Source: Mycoplasmataceae bacterium
GTDB taxonomy: Bacteria > Bacillota_I > Bacilli_A > Mycoplasmatales > Mycoplasmoidaceae
Length of the DNA: 64,000 nucleotides
Assembly: GCA_031290395.1 (NCBI GenBank)
Contig: JAITNN010000019.1
Span: 1-64,000 of the forward strand
Direction: 5' to 3'
Positions 34,067 through 45,192 of the stretch are shown one piece after another. The position numbers and the translations under genes are program-made. Positions within the stretch are counted from its first letter, which is position 1, and every line of letters begins with the position of its first letter. The notes under the pieces were generated by a model. The model saw only the letters and a program-made list of their open reading frames with translations. It did no database searches and had not been told where the DNA came from.

Positions 34067-35224
34067 ATGTCATTTTCTTTACAAATCATTCCAAAATATT
34101 ACTTTGGTGAAGCTGTTGTTAACCAACACTTAGTGGAAGAATTAAAACACCATCAGGTAAAAACTGTTCTATTAGCTTATGGTGGAGGTTCAATTAAACG
34201 TAATGGTCTTTATGATGAGATTGTTAAAGCTTGCAAACAAGCTAAGGTTAAGTTAGTTGAGCATAGTGGGATTGAACCGAACCCTAGAGATGTTGGGATC
34301 TACCAAGCAGCCTTAACTTGCCGTAAGTACAAAGTAGACTTAATCATTGCTGCCGGTGGTGGTAGTGTGATTGATGCTGCGAAAGTGATTGGCATCGTGG
34401 CAACTAATCCCCAATACAAAGACGCATGGAGTTATGTAATGGATAGTACTAAAGTTACTAAACCATCTATCCCTTTATTCTCCATCATTACATTAGCAGC
34501 CACAGGCAGTGAAAGTAATGCAGGCAGTGTCATTACTAATGCGAAGAGTCATTACAAGATGCCAACGGGAACACCATCGGCTACACCATTGGTTTGTTTT
34601 GAAGATCCCAAATATACCATGACATTGTCATGATGACAAACTGCTTGTGGGATCTTTGACATCTTTAGTCACTTATTAGAACAATACTATGATAGTAAAC
34701 TATTTAATTGGACGAAAGAGTATCTCCTAGCCAATATGCGAGTATGTCTTGATTGTGGTAAAGCCTTAAAGAAGAACAATCAAGACTACGAGGCAAGAAG
34801 TAATTTATTATGAACCTCATCTTGAGCTTTAAATGGTTTAGGATCTTTTCATGGTAGTTTTGGTGATTGAATGACTCATAAACTAGAGCATGCTGTCAGT
34901 GGTCTATGAGATGTTGAACATGGAGCAGGATTAGCTTTATTAACACCATATTATTTAAAATATATGGTAAAGCATAATAAATTATTTCTTCAACGTTCAT
35001 TAGAGATCGGTAAAGCTATCTTTGGCGTTAAAACCATTAATGAGTTCTTTAAATCATTAGATAACTTTATTAATTTATTAGGATTACCAAAAAAGTTCAC
35101 GGACTTTAAACAAATTAATAAAGTTACTAATGATGATATTAAATGGTTAAATAATCACTTTAATAAAGCGATTAAAGGTAAGGCCGAAATGGCGAAAGCT
35201 GTTTTGGATAGTGTGAAGAGATAG
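34067..35224 (+). CDS. Iron-type alcohol dehydrogenase
   Basis: 385 residues, group III (YqhD/BdhA-like). GGGSIKRNGLYDEI and AGGGSVIDAAKVIG bind NAD(P)H; metal ligands are in FDIFSHLLEQYYD and in HKLEHAVSGLWDVEHGAG (two His). It reduces aldehydes to alcohols or the reverse. UGA Trp-Trp pair at 34631-34636. Ribosome site TAGGAG. With the aldehyde dehydrogenase at 57-58 kb, it could serve redox balance. A single-gene unit. Confidence 0.92.
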
Positions 35225-35437
35225 AAACAAACATTTAAAATATAAGTTTAGTATTTTGTGTTATTTATCAGAAAATGGCATTTAGTTTATACATTTTGTG
35301 GGAGATATATTATACATTTTGAGGATTTTAAGGGAATCATTTCATCATATTTTTCGATGTGTTCTATTTATAAAACAATCAAATATAAACTAAAAAAGAT
35401 AAAACTATTTTAGATGATAGTGCAAGGAGATAGAAAA
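35225..35437 (+). other. Intergenic, nothing recognised
   Basis: 213 nt of AT-rich sequence between convergent genes; no terminator hairpin of note and no open frame with a start signal. Confidence 0.5.
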
Positions 35438-37693
35438 TTATTTTAGCAAACCGTGCTCAAATAATTTTGGTGCTATAAATTTATCATAATAATCTAAAAC
35501 CAATGTTCTTAATATAGACAACTTTGTATTTAGCTCAGGATAGTCATAATATATTTTATCAGTGTCAACATCTTTATATGAAGTATTAAGTTCTTGTGAA
35601 ATTTGATATACGCCATAAACATATTTTTTATTGTAAATTCCAGCACCTATTCTAGGATATCCGTTACAGTGTTTTGACTCTTTTAATACTTCGTTGAATT
35701 GTTTAACTAATATTTCTTCATCAACTGTCAATTTAGGACGAAGTGTATTCAATTTTTTATTCGCTACCGTGTCGCCATCAAAACAAAGTTCATTTTTGTA
35801 AAAGCGATTATCTGTTCCAGTAAAACTTAAACATTTATTAAAATATGACAAACAAGTAAAAATAAAACAAGATTTTAAAAAAAGTAAATCTTTTAAATAT
35901 CCGTTCCCGTTATCTGAACATTTCATTACAATTCCATGCTCTCACCATTTTCGCTCTGATGGGTATTTTCCAACCGCAAAAAGAGGCAATTTCTCAAAGT
36001 AGTTCGTGCCCGTTAAATAAAATCCGTTCCCGTTAAACATCGCACAGCGAGTGAGATTACATGCAAGCCTCGGGTTTTCAAATCCAAAAGATTGTGATAT
36101 TAAATAACCAATAATTTCTTGATTATATAATGGTTTAATTTTTAATTTTCCTTTTACATTTTCGTATCCACTTGTATTACAAACTATGCCTTTTTCGTCA
36201 TTCGTATTGGATTTCCTGATTTCATATAGTTGACTTATATTTCTATGTACTTTTTTGATGTGAATGTTTCTTTTTACATTTACTATGACTCCATCATTTT
36301 GTGATACGTTTCAATTTTCAATATCAAAAGCAGGCGCATCAAATTTATCTTGCTCTATTTCGGGTTGCATTCATCAAATGCAACTAATGGCAGAGGGAGT
36401 TCCTTTTGCATGGAAATATGTTTTATTAAAAATAAATCCTTCCATAAATGTTCTATTAACTAAATTTTGAGATTTAAAATATTTAACAGGGCTAAACAAT
36501 ATATAACTATCCGATGGCAAACGCAAATAGTATTTAAAAGCACTCCAAATAAATAAATTAGCTAATTCGTTTGTTGATTTACCTTTAATGTCTTCTTTCA
36601 TTTTCTTACAAACTAAGCTACTTTTCCAAGGAGCACTTTTATTTTCATCGTCTCTTAAGTCCACAGTTGATTTCGCTCCAGCTTCACTATAAGGTGGATT
36701 CTCAAATAATATTATTGTTACTTTTTTATCTTCAACATATGGTTTAATTTGATCAAGCACTTCATACCCTAAAGCATCAGCTTTTGGTACATGTCCAGCT
36801 ACAAAATCTTCTTCAGATACTGTTGGAGGAATAATGAATCTTACTTTATTACCAGCAAACCTCTCACATAAAACTTTGTACTCGAAATATTCGTATGTGG
36901 AAACAATTACATGAGTAAGCTCATCTGAAGTAAGCGAAGATTCAAGGTTACCAGTTCCCGCACAGCGATCAATGATCACATAGTCATTCCCTTTAGGAAC
37001 TCGCTTAATTGCACTTCTAACTAACTCTGTAGCTTTTCTACAATACGGTAGTGGTGTATAAAAAGCTCCCAATTCTTTTTTATGTAATGGATCGTTTAAA
37101 CAATCCATTAAATATTGAAATCTCTTGTTTGTTTTTTCTTTATAAGGAAAAATGAAGTTTTCAAACATTTTGGGGTTGCGTATCTCTGAAAAAAATTCGC
37201 CCTTGATAGCGTTTTTTCTTATCTTGTAAAATCGTTCAGCCCAACCTACTACACAATCTTCATTGATATGAATTTTTATAAAATTTTTTGATTCATTAAT
37301 TAGTTTTACTAAGTAACCTATGTTTTTTCCAAAATCAATTTTTATAGGTTTAGTTACTACATTGAATTTTTCATTATTTTTACTAGAAGGCCCCGTATAG
37401 ATGGTTTCTATTTCGCTTAAAAAGTCTTGAGAATTAAAAAAATAAGATATTTCTTCATTTAAACTAAGCAAACAAATTGTCGCAGGGATACTTTTGCCTT
37501 CCACACGCATCCTTGACAAATATTTAATTGTTTGAAATAAAACAGAATTGATGTTAGATATTGATAATTTAAATTCAAAAATTACTCCATCAATTACACC
37601 ATCGGTATAATTTTCATAAGTTACTTTTTCGTCCTTGTAGATTTTTTTATAAAAATCTATTTGACCTTCTTTTTCAGATGAATAATGTTGCAT
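35438..37693 (-). CDS. Type IIG-like restriction-modification enzyme
   Basis: 751 residues from ATG 37693; the frame is open further up from TTG codons to about 37774. N-terminal nuclease: Asp35..Glu40-Phe-Lys42 in IDGVIFEFK, a PD-(D/E)XK site. The middle is an N6-adenine methylase: GAFYTPLPYC, SAM motif DRCAGTGNL, catalytic FENPPYSEAG. The last 300 residues should recognise the DNA target. So cutting, methylation and specificity are in one chain. UGA-Trp codons, including a pair at 36371-36376. Divergent from an XRE regulator across palindromic sites. Confidence 0.85.
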
Positions 37694-37772
37694 ATATGCA
37701 ACTAAATATAAGACATAATTGTTTCTTTTAAGCAACAATTTGTTGCATTTAGTCCGTTGATATAAATGCAAC
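37688..37772. promoter_or_regulatory. Operator cluster between R-M gene and XRE regulator
   Basis: Three inverted repeats based on TTGCA/TGCAA: TTGCATATATGCAA at 37688-37701 (covers the R-M ATG), GCAACA..TGTTGC at 37732-37746, and GTTGCATTTA..TAAATGCAAC at 37742-37751/37763-37772. The last overlaps TTGATA (37757-37762), which with GATACT (37780-37785, 17-bp spacer) forms the XRE promoter. The arrangement matches controller-protein operators. Confidence 0.7.
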
Positions 37773-37795
37773 AAAGTTAGATACTAACTAAAGTT

Positions 37796-37999
37796 ATGAA
37801 AGCTAACGCTGTTGGTAAGAGAATAAACGAGCTAAGAAAAGCCAAAAATATGACTCAAGAAGAGTTGGCATTAGAGGCTAATATTGATCGTAGTTATATT
37901 GGTAGATTAATTACTAAAAATATGAACTGCACCGTTAAAAACCTTGAAAAGATATGCGATGCCTTAGGTGTTACTATGGCTCAGTTCTTCGATTGTTAA
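37796..37999 (+). CDS. XRE-family regulator, controller (C) protein-like
   Basis: 67 residues, one helix-turn-helix: GKRINELRKAKNMTQEELAL, EANIDRSYIGRLITKNMNCT, LEKICDALGVTMAQFF. Size and position match C proteins that time expression of restriction enzymes. It lies divergent to the R-M gene and 6 nt upstream of the nuclease-helicase, so it may control both sides. Probably leaderless. Confidence 0.85.
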   Translation: MKANAVGKRINELRKAKNMTQEELALEANIDRSYIGRLITKNMNCTVKNLEKICDALGVTMAQFFDC

Positions 38000-38005
38000 T
38001 TAAAG

Positions 38006-39871
38006 ATGATCATCTACAATAAGCCAATATCTGAATTTATTAATGCTTGCAATTGTTCTAAAATTAGAGATGAAGTTGTTAATGAACTAAAAAATCATGG
38101 CATTAATCATCAAAATGATTCAGAACAAATGTCGTGAGAAAAGTCATTACCATATATGGCTGAAGTTTTGAATTGTGATGAAATCAACAAAGATATTGAT
38201 GTAGCGATTGAATATAAGTTTAATGAATCTAAACATCGCATTGATTTTATCCTATATGGAAAAAACGATAAAAATTCTGTTGTTATGATTTTTGAACTGA
38301 AACAATGAAGTAGTATTTTTGAATCAACAAAGCAGAATTGTGTATTTGCTAATACTCATGGCTCAATAAGAGAAGACAAACTTCATCCATCTTGCCAAGC
38401 CTATTTTTATTCTAAGAGAATAGGTGATATGAATAAATATGTTCAAGATAACCATGTTGACATTAAATCTGCATCATATTTGCACAACCTCGATCAGGGG
38501 TATTTAACCTTAATGAGTAATCAAATCAATTATCCTTTTATTTCTAATTCTCCAGTGTTTTTAAAGGGACACATACAAACAATTAGACAATTTGTTGTTA
38601 ATTATATTAACCAAGAAGATCATGGGTTGCTTTACAATATCGATGCATCATTAATGGTTCCATCCACTGAACTTCGACACCTATTGGATAATTCGCTAAA
38701 AGGCAAAGATTTTTGATCATATGACGATCAACAAGCATTGTCGGTGTATACCATTGTAGATGAAGTAAAAAAATCTAAGGTTACTGGTAAAAGAAAAACA
38801 ATCATTATTAAAGGTGGCCCTGGAACTGGCAAATCAATTGTTGCTATTAATGCGTTAGGAAAATTACTAAATGATATAGTAAAAATGAACGCATGTTATT
38901 GTACGCAAAATGCAACACCTAGGAATTACTTTGGACAAACATTGATTGAAGGTGACTATAAAAAAGAAACAATTAAAGAATTATTTGTCAATCCATCAGT
39001 TTTTGCTAGTCGTTCTGAGAAATATTATGATTGCATATTTGCAGATGAAGCACACAGAATAGCGAAATGGAAATTTGGACTAGGTATTGGGAAAGACGTG
39101 AACATGCTAGACAAATTATTTAACAGTTCATTAGTGAATGTATTTTTCATCGATGAAGACCAAGCAGTTACGGTTCATGATTATGCCACAATTGACGAAA
39201 TAACTAAATTTGCTAAGAAATATAATTCAGAATTGATTATTAGTAATAATTTGGTATTAACTAGTCAATTTAGGTGCTTGGGTGGAGAAGAATACACTCA
39301 ATTTGTTAAATCGTTTCTTAAGTATGATGATAATGTTAATTTTTATATTAAGAATAACAAATATGACTTAAGAATATTTGACGACCCTAATCAAATGAGG
39401 AATGAAATATCGAAGTTAAATGAAAAATATGGCAAATGTCGTTTGGTTTCTGGATATACGCATAATTGAGTTTCACGCAATGATCCAACGGAATATGATT
39501 TTCAATTAGCAAATGGTTTTAAAGCTCAATGAAACTTTAATAATGTAAGTTCGTGAATCCATGATGAGTCAGCTAAAGATTCGATTGGTTGCATACACAC
39601 ATGTCAAGGCATTGATATGCAGTATTGTGGAGTGATAATTGGTAAAGATTTGAGGTGTGATGGCAAGAAAATTATTTTTGATAGAGATGCCAATGCTAAA
39701 ACAGATGCGTCTAGTGGAATACGATCAAAAAAAATAAATGTAATAGAAGCTGATCGATTAATTAGAAACACTTACAATGTACTTCTAACGCGCGGTATGC
39801 GAGGCACTTTTATATATTGCGAAAACCAAAATCTATCCAGATACCTCAAATCGATTATTAAATATATGTAA
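38006..39871 (+). CDS. Nuclease-helicase with DUF2075/Schlafen-3-type ATPase
   Basis: 621 residues. N-terminal 110 residues carry a likely PD-(D/E)XK nuclease (Asp80 in HRIDFILYG; Glu97-Leu-Lys99 in MIFELKQW). The ATPase has Walker A GGPGTGKS (270-277), Walker B CIFADEAHR, and C-terminal CIHTCQGIDMQYCGVIIG and NVLLTRGMRGT helicase motifs, as in DUF2075 proteins. Many are found in defence islands. UGA-Trp codons at 38714, 39467 and others. Co-transcribed with the XRE gene. Confidence 0.87.
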
Positions 39872-39925
39872 ATATATTTTTATATATATAAAAATGTGAT
39901 AATCTTATTATTTAAAGGGGTACTT

Positions 39926-40945
39926 ACGGCTACATATATTGAAATATTAAAAGAATTTAATGAGGAATTAATTAAAGAACGCTCAGCGCCTGTAATTGGT
40001 AGTAATAGGATAATACAATCGCATAATACACATTTAATAGTTTTAAAAAAATTACGAGATAAATACATAACTAATTTAGAAAAAATTACCAATAGAAAAA
40101 CTATTATTTATTACTCAGGATTTTTAAAATTGAATCCCGTGTCATCATCATTTGGTATGTCTAGCCAGAGTAGAACTAATGATATGCATATATCTATTAA
40201 CGATCAAGACATTAATGCTTTTTCGTCAAATATTTTTTCGAAAATTTCAAAAAGTACCCTTAGTACAAACGGTTATGACATTGTGCTACATACGCCAGGT
40301 GGCGCAGCTACATCTTGCGAACAATTAATCCAAACCATAACAGCTTTTTGCGATAATAATTTTAGAACAATTATTCCTCAACAAGCTATGTCGGCAGGAA
40401 CCATGATTGCTTGTGCTTCAAAAGAAATAATAATGGATGATTCAGCAGCTTTAGGGCCTACCGATCCACAAGTCTGAGGAGGTTTGCCAGCGCAAGCCAT
40501 TGTAGACGAAGTTGATTCAATCATTAATGAGGTAAAAAAAGATCAAGTTAAAATATTGGTTTATCGTGAAATTTTAGCTAAATACCCTCCAACATTTATA
40601 GGTCAAAGCAAAGAAGCCATAGCACTAGTGGACGAGCTTCTTAAGAAGTATTTAAAAAGAAATATGCTTGCGAAAAAGTCGGAATCTGATGTTCAGGAAA
40701 TAATACAAAATTTTTTGTCAAGCCATAAGTTTTCAAAACTTCACGGAAGACCTTATTCGCCAGATGTTTGTCTAGAACATGGGTTAAATGTTGTAAAAAC
40801 TAGTTCAGACGCAAATTTAAAACAAGCTATTGAAAGCCTACATAATATTTGCCTTCTTTCAATCGAAATATTAAATATTAGTAAATTAATTGATTCAGTG
40901 GACTGTGACGCATGAATAATCTCGTCAAACCAATTATTGGTTTAA
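39926..40945 (+). CDS. SDH-family Clp-fold serine protease, possible ACG start
   Basis: 339 residues from ACG 39926. IVLHTPGGAATSCEQL and PQQAMSAGTMIAC (nucleophile Ser156), then DDSAALGPTDPQVWGGLP, are the ClpP-like SDH protease signature. The family usually starts M-A/P-T-W/Y..EIL; here the match begins with ACG GCT ACA TAT at a perfect distance from AAAGGGG (39914-39920). The alternative is GTG 39896, which adds ten residues. UGA codons at 40475 and 40913 are Trp. It follows the nuclease-helicase by 54 nt. Confidence 0.82.
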
Positions 40946-40946
40946 A

Positions 40947-41096
40947 TTAGAATTGTCTAAAATTACAATCAATTACGAATCCGTCACTATCATTTAGCGA
41001 ATCACTATTTCCCTTAGAATTAATATTTTCAATATTATATTTCTTATAGAAATCTGTATACTTTTTAATGTTAATGTTTATTTTTTTATTTTTCAT
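40947..41096 (-). CDS. Possible 49-residue protein
   Basis: ATG 41096 to TAA 40947, convergent with the protease gene. Lys/Asn/Ile-rich head and acidic end (SDSLNDSDGFVID). No clear ribosome site; could be chance in AT-rich DNA. Confidence 0.35.
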   Translation of the reverse strand: MKNKKININIKKYTDFYKKYNIENINSKGNSDSLNDSDGFVIDCNFRQF

Positions 41097-41184
41097 ATAG
41101 AGTACTAAATTCTTTCAAATCTAAAATATTATATACAAAAGATATTTTTTTGTACCATATAACTATTTACTATGAAAACATCAT

Positions 41185-41217
41185 AAACCCATTACGTATA
41201 TGTAATGGGTTTATAAT
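41185..41217 (+). promoter_or_regulatory. Hairpin fused to a -10 box
   Basis: AAACCCATTAC / GTAATGGGTTT (11-bp stem, 6-nt loop) whose last T is the first base of TATAAT 41212-41217. ATG 41225 follows seven bases later. It is the same design as at 31251-31291. Confidence 0.65.
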
Positions 41218-41224
41218 TAACTTA

Positions 41225-42379
41225 ATGAAAATTAAGTATCTTAAGTTAATTATTTCACCAATTGTTTGTATGGCAACAGCTTTGGTATTTTCATCATGTG
41301 GGCCAATACCAAGCGCCACTTTACAAATTGAAGACTACCAACTACCGTTTCCTATTGTTGGATACAACGACACAATTACCCATCAATACAAACTTAATCG
41401 AACTTTTACAAGTGACTATAAGGTAAGCTGAACCATAACAGGACTAAACGCCGAAACCATTGAACAAATTACGGCAAGAAATATTGTTTTAACAGACGAT
41501 GGTATATTAATTATTGCACCTGGTGTACCAGGTGCTGGAGATAATATTCCACCTTACTATTTTGCAGTTGGTGCTACAATTTGATATCATCAAAACCAAT
41601 TAAATCGGTTATTCTTACCAGTAATGTTCAATGTTAGTAAACATGCAATACCAACATGAGAAGGGACTTCTCCAAATCGTTCACTGATTGATGGGAATAG
41701 CAATAAATTTGGCGATAGTAATAATGTCGTTAAAGTTATTGATATTTCATCACATCAACCAGACATTGATTGAGATGTTGTGAAAAAGTCATCGGATGTG
41801 GATGCCGTTTTATTAAGGTGTGGCTATTATGACGAAATGGATACCCAATTTGTATATAACGTTGCTAGTCTTAATCGGTTGCGTATACCTTATGGTGTTT
41901 ACTTATATAGTTATGCTGAAAATGAAGGTGATGGTACAATGGAAGCAAATACGGTAGCTAATGCATTAGCAACAGCACATGCACGTTTGTCCTTACCAAT
42001 ATTCTACGATTTAGAAGATTGAGCAACTGCCAGCGGAAATGCTCCCGTAGATCCAATATTTTGAAAAGCTCGCACTCAAGAATTCTATGCTCAATTAAAA
42101 AATCGTGGGTATGATGAAAATAAGATCTTTTGTTATTCTTATCCAAGTTGATTTGACAAGATTTGTGGTGAAGATGACTATCTAAAAGAACATCTAGCGT
42201 GGAGAGCATCTTACAATAGTGTTTTTAATGGCGATGGCACAACATATCCTGATTTTAATTGGGATAATTTTCCTCCAAACAAAATTCATGCTTGGCAATA
42301 CACATCTGAAGGTGTTTTTCCAGGGATTTATTCATCGACAACCGTTGATATTAGTGCAATCTATAATTACAGTTTTTAA
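41225..42379 (+). CDS. GH25 lysozyme-like lipoprotein
   Basis: 384 residues. Lipobox VFSSC (Cys25) anchors it outside. After an extracellular linker, residues 170-380 form a GH25 muramidase: VIDISSHQPDIDW (Asp173), AVLLRCGYY, YGVYLYSYAE, FYDLEDW (Asp262, Glu264 as catalytic pair), HAWQYTSEG and the final VDISAIYNY. It would cut the N-acetylmuramic acid bonds of peptidoglycan. A wall-less host has no peptidoglycan of its own, so the target is probably other bacteria. Several UGA-Trp codons. Confidence 0.9.
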
Positions 42380-42418
42380 AGAAATTTCTACAATATCTAA
42401 AAATGACATTTGCATAAT

Positions 42419-42447
42419 TTGACTAAAATATTTATTTATGGTAATAT
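42419..42447 (+). promoter_or_regulatory. Promoter of a small RNA
   Basis: TTGACT (42419-42424), 17-bp spacer, TAATAT (42442-42447). As good as the rRNA promoters, but no open frame follows. Confidence 0.75.
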
Positions 42448-42453
42448 TTATTC

Positions 42454-42528
42454 GTCAGTAAGGTTATTTCCTTTCTGAGGCGCGATTGTGCGCCGCTTAA
42501 ACCAACGACATGATAAATGTCGTTTTTT
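42454..42528 (+). ncRNA. Independent small RNA, about 75 nt
   Basis: Between the promoter above and an intrinsic terminator (AACGACAT/ATGTCGTT stem 42504-42524, then T6). It contains a GC-rich hairpin GGCGC-GATTGT-GCGCC (42479-42494), striking in an AT-rich genome, and GGTT/AACC that can close around it. No SRP (GGAAG..AGCAGC), 6S or tmRNA signature. The last bases overlap the stop of the convergent MazF-like gene. Confidence 0.65.
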
Positions 42529-42892
42529 ATTCTTCTTTAAATACTTTTTTAACGAAATTTAAGATTGACTCTCTAACGCTTTGTGGCACTTTTTGATTTT
42601 TAAGTTTATTTCTATCGTGTAAATAATATTTATAAACTGTGTGAATTCTATCGGGGAATATATAGCTATCTTTACGATTACCTAGTTTATCGGTATATGA
42701 ATAAAAATAGATACTATTTTCATTAATTTTATTGCTACCAAGTTCGACAATTAAAGCTCTATCCAATAATAATTTGTTGGTGCTAATTACCATAATTGGT
42801 CTGGTTTTATTTAGTTGTATGCCCTTATACGATTTAATGTCGCTTTCTCTTATATAAAATACATCTCATCTTAAACTTTTAAAATTTGCCAT
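42527..42892 (-). CDS. MazF/PemK-like toxin
   Basis: 121 residues. LRWDVFYIRESDIKSYKGIQ, then NKTRPIMVIS and ALIVELGSN follow the PemK/MazF barrel (usually RGDIyyvd..qgkxRPvvVis). The C terminus is less typical. These proteins cut mRNA. No antitoxin gene lies next to it on this strand; the convergent small RNA touches its 3' end. Promoter TTGACA-17-TATGTT on the - strand. One UGA-Trp. A single-gene member or an adapted relative is possible. Confidence 0.72.
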
Positions 42893-42912
42893 TTGCTATA
42901 CCGTTAATGATT

Positions 42913-42941
42913 AACATACCATAAATAATTTTTGTTGTCAA
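42913..42941 (-). promoter_or_regulatory. Promoter of the MazF-like gene
   Basis: TTGACA (42941-42936), 17-bp spacer, TATGTT (42918-42913) on the - strand; ATG 42892 is 20 nt further. Confidence 0.7.
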
Positions 42942-43085
42942 TGAAAATTTTTATTTCTAAAGAACATAAGTCTCTTTCATGCTTCTTGTTGTAGATTCTA
43001 GATGTTTCCATTTTGGAAACTACTGAATCTTTATCTAATCCATTACAATTGTAAAGAAACTTGTGACTTTGGATTTATTCCAATT

Positions 43086-44288
43086 CTAGTGTATGTTACT
43101 TATCCTTGCCATATCATTTTTAGATAAATCTAAAGGTTTATCAAATTTTACTATTAACTTACTCATTGGTTTATTAACTACATCAATTAATAGACCATCT
43201 TTATCTTTAATTTCCAATAGTTTAACATTCTCAATGTGTTTTAAGTTTCTGCCCAATACTTGGAAGTCATTGATAATCCTAAAATAATTACGTGAAGTCA
43301 CTCGGTAAGTTTCATCATCAATTTTTTGATCAATAATAAAAGCAAATAGTTGATTAACTTGTTTAGGTATTTCATGATAAAGCATTTCATCTTTAGACGG
43401 ATTACCATTAAATCAAGCATAGGATACTTCCCGATTGGCCGCCTTTAAAACATCATCAACATATTCTGACAATGATTGCTTTTTATCATAGATGGAATCA
43501 ATGATTTTACGGTAAGCATTAACAACTGTAGCGATGTAATGCTCAGATTTCATCCGTCCTTCAATTTTTAAAGCACTAACACGACAATCGATTATGTCTT
43601 TAACATAGTTAATTAAGCACATATCTTTCGCTGACATACTAAATGTTTTAGATAGTGATCGATTGTCTTTATATAGTTCATTAACTCAACGACACGATTG
43701 TGCACAACCACCATTATTAGCATCTCTTAAACAAAAGTTGCTACTCAACATACAACGCCCACTATAAGAAATACAAACAGCTCCATGACCAAACATTTCG
43801 ATCTCAATTTGGTCATGGACATTATTAATCATTAGTTTAATTTCGTTTAGCGATACTTCTCTAGCTGTCACAATTCGCTTAGCACCATTTCTAGCTCAAA
43901 ATAAGGCCGCTTTTGAATTAGTGACAGATTGCTGTGTAGAAACATGGATGATAGCATTGGGATAATGTTTTTGAATCTTCCGGTAAATGCTTGGATCAGT
44001 CACTAAAAATGCATCAGGAGGTGTTTTCATTACCTCATGTAAAAAATCTTCAAAACCATTTAGTAAATGATTGTGGCAAACAATGTTAGTTACTAAGTAA
44101 ACTTTCTTTTGATTCTGATGGGCATAATTAATCATTTCATGCAATTGCTGATTATCAAAATTAGAGGCTCTAGCTCTTAATGAATATTGTTTGCCACCGA
44201 AGTAAATTGCATCAGCACCAAAGTCCAATGCAATTTGGCCACGATTTAAATCTCCTGCAGGGGCCAATAATTCCATATGGTTACTCAT
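43086..44288 (-). CDS. trhP2: U32-family tRNA hydroxylation protein (TrhP2/YrrO-like)
   Basis: 400 residues. ELLAPAGDLNRGQIALDFGADAIYFGG is the U32 start; CISYSGRCMLSSNFCLRDANNGGCAQSCRW carries the four-Cys cluster; ALKIEGRMKSEHYIATVVNAYR follows. In Bacillus, YrrN/YrrO take part in 5-hydroxyuridine formation at tRNA position 34. Three UGA-Trp codons split it otherwise. It follows the shorter partner with an 8-nt overlap. Confidence 0.87.
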
Positions 44289-45192
44289 ATGTATCCTCTT
44301 TGACGAGATAAATCATGTCTTGTTTATTCATGCTATAAAAACCATGTGATAGTTTGTCTTCAATGTTAGTTTCTTGAATTAACTTATCATTGAATGATCC
44401 ATTTTCAAGCGATTTAAGACCGCTTAGATAAAGTTTTGTCATTTTGATAGTTCATTGTTCATCGTGTAAAAAACTATCAATTCTAATGGTGTCTATGTGA
44501 TTTTCATTCAATTCTGATAATTTATCAAACAACATTAATGAATAGTTAGTGAAGACATGAGCGCCATGTTCATCTTCGTAAATAATCATGGGTTCTTTAC
44601 GTGATATTTCACGGATGAGTAATTTTGTCTTCGCTAACTCTTTGTCAATGTGTTGTGTTTCCTGGAAATTAGATACTAGCTTCCAACGTGAGTGCATTAC
44701 ATAGGCATAGCCACTAACTTGCACTTGGAGTTTCATTTGGTTTTTCTTTTGACCAATTTCTTTGATTTCATTAGCGTTTAATTCACGAGCTAATGCTACT
44801 TCGCCAATGTTATTTTCTAAATAAAAAGGGAATTGATCATAGTTAGTGACCAATGTTTCAGGGTTATAAATTAAAGGTATTCTAATTTTCTGTTCATAAC
44901 AGATTTGATTAATAGCAAAGTCCCCAAATATAAAACCATCAATGTCTAGTTTGCTTAATTCCATTAAGTAAGTCGTTAAATTATCTAGTTCAGGATCAAA
45001 ATAAAAACGATTAACCAACACAAGGATTTTGGTATTTTTCTTGTGCTGGGTTAGTGTTTTAATTTCGTCTAAAGTTAAATGACAGTTGTTACGGACACAA
45101 TAGTGGTTATCACCGACGCATAGTTGGTGGACACCAAGATCAATTAGGTCTATAGCATTTGTATAACTTGTAGGGTTAACCAAAAGTTCCAT
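44281..45192 (-). CDS. trhP1: U32-family partner (TrhP1/YrrN-like)
   Basis: 303 residues. MELLVNPTSYTNAIDLIDLGVHQLCVGDNHYCVR and PLIYNPETLVTNYDQFPFYLE, VALARELNANEIKEI are typical for the shorter U32 partner without the Cys cluster. Gene order trhP1-trhP2 is conserved in Firmicutes. One UGA-Trp at 44450-44452. Probably first gene of this two-gene unit. Confidence 0.85.

Follow-up and report, generated by a model that had tools for sequence, protein, structure and literature searches.

This report concerns a cluster of four genes at positions 35438-40945 of a 64,000-nucleotide stretch of DNA from a Mycoplasmataceae bacterium (GenBank assembly GCA_031290395.1, contig JAITNN010000019.1, positions 1 to 64,000), referred to here as the window. 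With a probability of about 0.72, we read the cluster as a one-chain, type IIG-like restriction-modification (R-M) enzyme under a controller (C) protein, whose transcript also carries two defence-type genes acquired independently of each other: one for a nuclease-helicase and one for an SDH-type Clp-fold protease; together they would form a small defence island of the mobile type. The window is part of an 89-kb contig (C4), and the host genome comprises 1.01 Mb in 21 contigs and is 92% complete; the host appears to be a Mollicute, a tiny bacterium without a cell wall.

An earlier, sequence-only reading listed four genes here, and each of them is there, in the order and direction that it gave: R-M and C are divergent, and the helicase and protease follow on the strand of C. 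Seeing this requires genetic code 4 (TGA read as tryptophan), as three of the four genes are broken under table 11 and open under table 4; for that reason, the standard code was rejected. Many in-frame TGA codons are also present in relatives of these genes from the same order.

The C gene (37796-37999, plus strand) encodes a 67-amino-acid XRE protein with an HTH_3 match, whose closest PDB entries are C.Esp1396I, C.AhdI, and C.BclI (E 7e-9 to 7e-7). It has the marks of a controller, being a short HTH_3 protein that is kin to known C proteins and has an R-M gene next to it. Two operators can be predicted around the R-M/C intergenic region. On the R-M side, a perfect 16-bp palindrome (GTTGCATATATGCAAC, 37687-37702) covers the R-M start codon and is the sole exact GTTGC-N6-GCAAC in the whole genome. 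On the other side, a 35-bp dyad, TTGTTGC...GCAACAA (37740-37774), which a 15-bp palindrome (37732-37746) overlaps, is the predicted autoregulatory operator. This dyad spans the -35 box of the putative C promoter (TTGATA-17-GATACT, 37757-37785, plus strand), so that the symmetric predicted C boxes overlap a promoter of C's own that is itself a consensus match only. Because 10 nt separate the end of this promoter from the start codon of C, the C mRNA is predicted to be nearly leaderless. The GTTGC/GCAAC half-sites that form these elements number five in 86 bp (37687-37772), and nowhere else in the window are they packed as densely; first-order Markov simulations of 64 kb reached five in 2 of 300 runs. 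The operators that had been proposed as common to all four genes (as TTGCA) are found in the R-M/C intergenic region, but no GTTGC/GCAAC cluster lies upstream of the helicase or of the protease, which could share them only by way of a single transcript.

What we consider the strongest evidence for a controller circuit in the window comes from sequence comparison with a second locus, L273, in a genome of the same genus (G197). Here, a C-like gene, 37% identical to the window C, is divergent from two N6/N4 methyltransferase genes and a 417-amino-acid gene. Its half-sites, GTTAG/CTAAC, are 11 bp apart near the methyltransferase start and 26 bp apart before C, spacings that are identical to those in the window. 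The geometry is thus kept whereas the half-site is changed (GTTAG vs GTTGC), as expected of a working switch with altered protein-DNA contacts. No same-strand gene stands behind this C within the stretch examined, and neither a helicase nor an SDH gene is present; because C has no same-strand follower there, a C gene with a divergent R-M gene looks complete on its own. Given the kinship of C to solved controllers and the operator geometry shared with L273, the pairing of a controller with a one-chain enzyme put forward in the sequence-only reading holds, and we regard a C-controlled R-M unit in the window as well supported. As a separate matter, L273:5520-5660 and window 37680-37800 together constitute a natural experiment in controller specificity.

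The R-M gene (35438-37693, minus strand; 751 amino acids under code 4) was assigned from an alignment of relatives, its motifs, and its fold. Its reading frame is open over 35438-37774, and the start was placed at ATG 37693 by the alignment column of intact relatives. The protein consists of an N-terminal PD-(D/E)XK nuclease, a gamma-class N6-adenine methyltransferase core, and a C-terminal region that is likely to serve in target recognition; the nuclease motif D31...E40-x-K42 (D-x8-E-x-K), the DRCAGTGNL motif I, and the NPPY motif IV are intact. It has no match in Pfam, NCBIfam, or PADLOC, and none among PDB sequences; phmmer searches of PDB with the R-M, helicase, and SDH proteins likewise gave no useful match. 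Its AlphaFold2 model (mean predicted local distance difference test score, pLDDT, 72.7) finds mostly methyltransferases in its VIA-align match list, including the gamma-class adenine methyltransferases M.BseCI (Z 14.1) and CamA (Z about 13.5). It also matches BsaXI (Z 12.7) and DrdV (Z 13.9, covering residues 1-534 with 325 aligned, at a root-mean-square deviation of 13.2, which probably stems from differing domain placement). Together with the N-terminal D-x8-E-x-K motif, these modelled fold matches support a type IIG arrangement, nuclease and methyltransferase in one chain. Like the type IIG/IIL enzymes DrdV and BsaXI, the protein combines an N-terminal nuclease with a gamma-class methyltransferase; unlike them, it is shorter and is not matched by PDB sequence. 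Relatives are 33-46% identical and come from same-order Mollicutes in our family f7, from a single genome of the Bacilli type, and from plasmids of Limosilactobacillus; those examined are solitary, and none adjoins a close C homologue, the helicase, or an SDH gene. Six distant R-M-related loci lie among viral contigs. Several type IIG relatives (L021, L243, and L236) are interrupted by stop codons or frame breaks, with decay or phase variation as candidate causes.

Two published systems guide our view of how C may act. In Kpn2I, the methyltransferase (M) and C genes are divergent, and the M promoter is inhibited by C.Kpn2I (PMC6237814). Repression of M by its controller is likewise described for Esp1396I, where C binds at the M promoter (PMC4041747). 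From these precedents, we infer which way C would regulate here. C would bind the dyad over the R-M start codon and repress R-M, and would regulate itself by binding the second dyad, the one spanning the -35 box of the C promoter; on entry into a new cell, an initial burst of R-M enzyme would be lowered as C accumulates. As in Kpn2I, a methylase-bearing gene and C diverge over a short intergenic region, and C is predicted to repress the former. Unlike Kpn2I, restriction and modification reside in one chain, helicase and protease genes follow C, and the sites predicted for C are located upstream of it and across the R-M start codon instead of within the C gene. The window C resembles C.Esp1396I, C.AhdI, and C.BclI as a 67-residue HTH_3 protein, and the 35-bp dyad before it has the length of the OL+OR operator of Esp1396I (PMC4041747); it differs from all three in its GTTGC half-site and in having no separate restriction gene behind it.

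Behind C, the helicase follows after 6 nt and the SDH gene after a further 24 nt, all on one strand, and terminator prediction on the plus strand across the three genes returned none between them. As the genes are so tightly packed and no terminator is predicted, we take C, helicase, and SDH to be a putative compact transcription unit. Since they lie directly behind C, the C promoter probably drives transcription of both the helicase and the protease genes, whose products would each act alone; they would have been acquired separately and landed in this position.

The four genes do not recur as a set. The comparison covered 198 genomes of the order Mycoplasmatales and 392 across the phylum (one per species), 173 SDH loci, 49 helicase loci besides that of the window, and the R-M relatives; the SDH scan took in 80 relatives from chromosomes (out of 518) and 80 from viruses (out of 187). 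In all this material, no two members of the set adjoin elsewhere, as judged by BLAST or hidden Markov model (HMM) matches to the window proteins in loci that, where drawn from genome searches, extend only 1.5 kb past the match; a distant replacement could escape such a call. An HMM search run with positive controls found the helicase or the window-type R-M family in 0 of 173 SDH loci, and none of the 49 other helicase loci holds an SDH gene, a close C homologue, or a gene of the window-type R-M family. Measured against the refutation that the sequence-only reading had itself proposed, a lack of co-occurrence elsewhere, the idea that the four genes are a single regulated composite system is not supported, and nothing speaks for a helicase and protease acting as a second layer when restriction fails. 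The lack of recurrence, the other habitual partners described below, and the existence of solitary relatives of every gene instead speak, at the level of sequence, for stepwise collection of genes in an island rather than for a four-part system.

The surroundings are those of an island. The cluster sits in a 7.9-kb accessory insertion (35225-43085) between an iron-dependent alcohol dehydrogenase gene (Fe-ADH, 34067-35224) and a U32 peptidase pair (43086-45192), and it contains, besides our four genes, a GH25 lipoprotein gene and a weakly PemK-like gene. In a genome of the same genus (G173, L319), the Fe-ADH gene and the U32 pair are convergent with only 3 nt between them, and in genome G455 (L320), two small open reading frames (ORFs) occupy the corresponding site. 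Set against the 7.9 kb here, these arrangements mark the site as variable and the four-gene set as part of an accessory insertion there, and the defence-island setting suggested earlier stands. A search for target-site duplications at the ends of the insertion found none.

The helicase (38006-39871, plus strand; 621 amino acids) is an SLFN-g3/DUF2075 superfamily 1 (SF1) enzyme that carries a PD-(D/E)XK-type nuclease domain at its N-terminus. It matches PF09848 at E=7e-78, over the gathering score, and its nuclease-type motif E69/D80/E97-x-K99 is intact, with the pattern E...RxD...ELKQW conserved, as are Walker A (GGPGTGKS) and Walker B (DEAH). Its model (pLDDT 83) resembles RecD, SLFN11, and other SF1 helicases. 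Like Nhi, AbiO, and PDC-S41, it is a PF09848-type helicase, and its relatives match all three in PADLOC (Nhi at E about 5e-14 to 5e-15, AbiO at about 2e-15 to 2e-14); the window protein itself matches PDC-S41 alone, with no Nhi or AbiO match at E 0.01. On the strength of these relatives, the helicase is likely to have an anti-phage role of its own, as a single-gene defence that would degrade nucleic acid. The gene is common (76 of 392 phylum-wide genomes); some plasmid-borne copies sit among type I and other R-M genes, and no relatives were confirmed in viral contigs. A MazG-like pyrophosphohydrolase gene lies close by, usually adjacent, in 20 of 50 helicase loci (PF12643 in L241), and the two likely form a two-gene defence unit (L276-L305, L038, L044, L239, and L241). 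No such gene stands beside the window helicase. In addition, a truncated N-terminal helicase fragment, 70% identical to that of the window, lies by a SufB-like gene in L272 (G197 contig 25), which suggests that, within this genus, the helicase gene is mobile and undergoes decay on its own.

The protease gene (39896-40945, plus strand) belongs to the SDH family (PF01972, NF047768). It passes the Pfam cut-off (71.4 bits vs 31.3); S166, H132, D190, and the other invariant residues are intact, and the HTPGG, MSAGTM, and GPxDPQ motifs are present. Its NCBIfam score, however, stays short of the equivalog threshold (82 vs 250 bits), and it lacks the small upstream partner that is usual among relatives. 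SDH genes are rarer than the helicase (8 of 392 phylum-wide genomes) and are scattered over phages, prophages, plasmids, and chromosomes of bacteria and archaea; two related genomes carry a solitary copy. A short ORF on the same strand lies immediately upstream in 107 of 162 loci. It mostly encodes 55-80 amino acids, often overlaps the SDH gene, and carries the motif FxxLGLxTExxRExF, with a C-terminus that is frequently NAKLE or SNSTxPI. These short proteins fall into groups; when HMMs trained on half the members of the largest one were run against 2,807 ORFs (E<=1e-3), they matched solely ORFs just upstream of SDH (15/15, 15/15, and 12/12); one protein run against Pfam gave no match. Judged from these sequences, small protein plus SDH is a widespread, unannotated two-gene module of bacteria, archaea, and phages (L064-L223, such as L068, L082, L084, L110, and L160). 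By contrast with this small partner, Pfam and PADLOC calls on 90 larger neighbours revealed no constant large one, but a mixture of housekeeping, mobile, and a few R-M genes. In the window, the protease would act on a protein target. Two neighbourhoods deserve mention: in a lambdoid E. coli prophage (L063:5038-6708), the SDH gene stands directly after a CI-type repressor, in the rex position typical of superinfection-exclusion genes, and is carried by 17 of 5,426 E. coli genomes; in the Bacilli-type locus L050, it directly follows an S24-type repressor.

With neither a MazG-like nor a small SDH partner at hand, the helicase and protease could be decaying passengers of little function. The Met that starts other full-length SDH members aligns with ACG 39926, 5 nt behind AAAGGGG; a MazG search of this genome, run without a positive control, gave no match; and in G197, a helicase 70% identical to that of the window is truncated. 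However, both genes retain long open frames and all invariant residues, an in-frame GTG (39896, our candidate start, without an AAAGGGG-like site) is available 30 nt upstream of the ACG, and within this order, many helicases (those of family f5) have no MazG either. We think this explanation unlikely.

Our preferred reading, a C-controlled R-M unit with separately acquired genes behind it, must also answer several points that weigh against it. The short gaps, with no terminator predicted in them, could well place the helicase and protease under C control, and that control may have been selected for; the SDH family is not established as a defence gene; and a C gene paired with a one-chain enzyme is classically unexpected, since restriction and modification cannot then be timed apart. 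The first of these is also an argument for a true composite, in which C coordinates early R-M expression with a later helicase-protease operon that stands where a C-R operon would have R, the parts acting jointly against restriction-escaping phage. The shared intergenic region flanked by both dyads, and the intact motifs of the helicase, SDH, and R-M proteins, fit this too. We nevertheless hold it to be improbable, weakened as it is by the absence of co-occurrence from every other genome or locus examined, by the different habitual partners of helicase and SDH, and by relatives of each gene that occur alone. No better are the odds of its boldest form, that the C gene of a one-chain enzyme has been rewired, with a nuclease-helicase and a Clp-fold protease in what is usually the R operon, so that R-M comes first and the others after C accumulates. 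The least likely proposal, that C is the autoregulator of a helicase-protease operon and R-M an unrelated divergent neighbour, can point to the placing of C for co-transcription with the helicase, to the CI/LexA-type repressors ahead of SDH in prophages (L050, L063), and to R-M relatives without a C gene, but it conflicts with the divergent C and R-M of L273, which keep the same operator geometry without helicase or SDH, with the dyad that covers the R-M start codon, and with the absence of an XRE neighbour like the window C at all 49 helicase relatives.

As the inability to time the two activities apart also makes the usual reason for C control inapplicable, the locus offers a clean test case of a controller with a one-chain enzyme, although such a pair may already be listed in REBASE. 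It also shows how C operons can gather passenger defence genes. As candidates for working systems, we recommend helicase plus MazG-like protein and small protein plus SDH over the four-gene set of the window; if the SDH pair truly serves in defence or in phage maintenance, it would be a module of a new, protease-based kind. Our search of the literature on DUF2075 with anti-phage activity, on SDH protease defence, and on MazG-helicase islands found nothing relevant. Finally, the two other genes of the 7.9-kb insertion can be placed: the gene at 42527-42892 resembles PemK/MazF weakly, with a score that does not reach the Pfam cut-off, and a GH25 lysozyme-like lipoprotein is encoded at 41150-42379.

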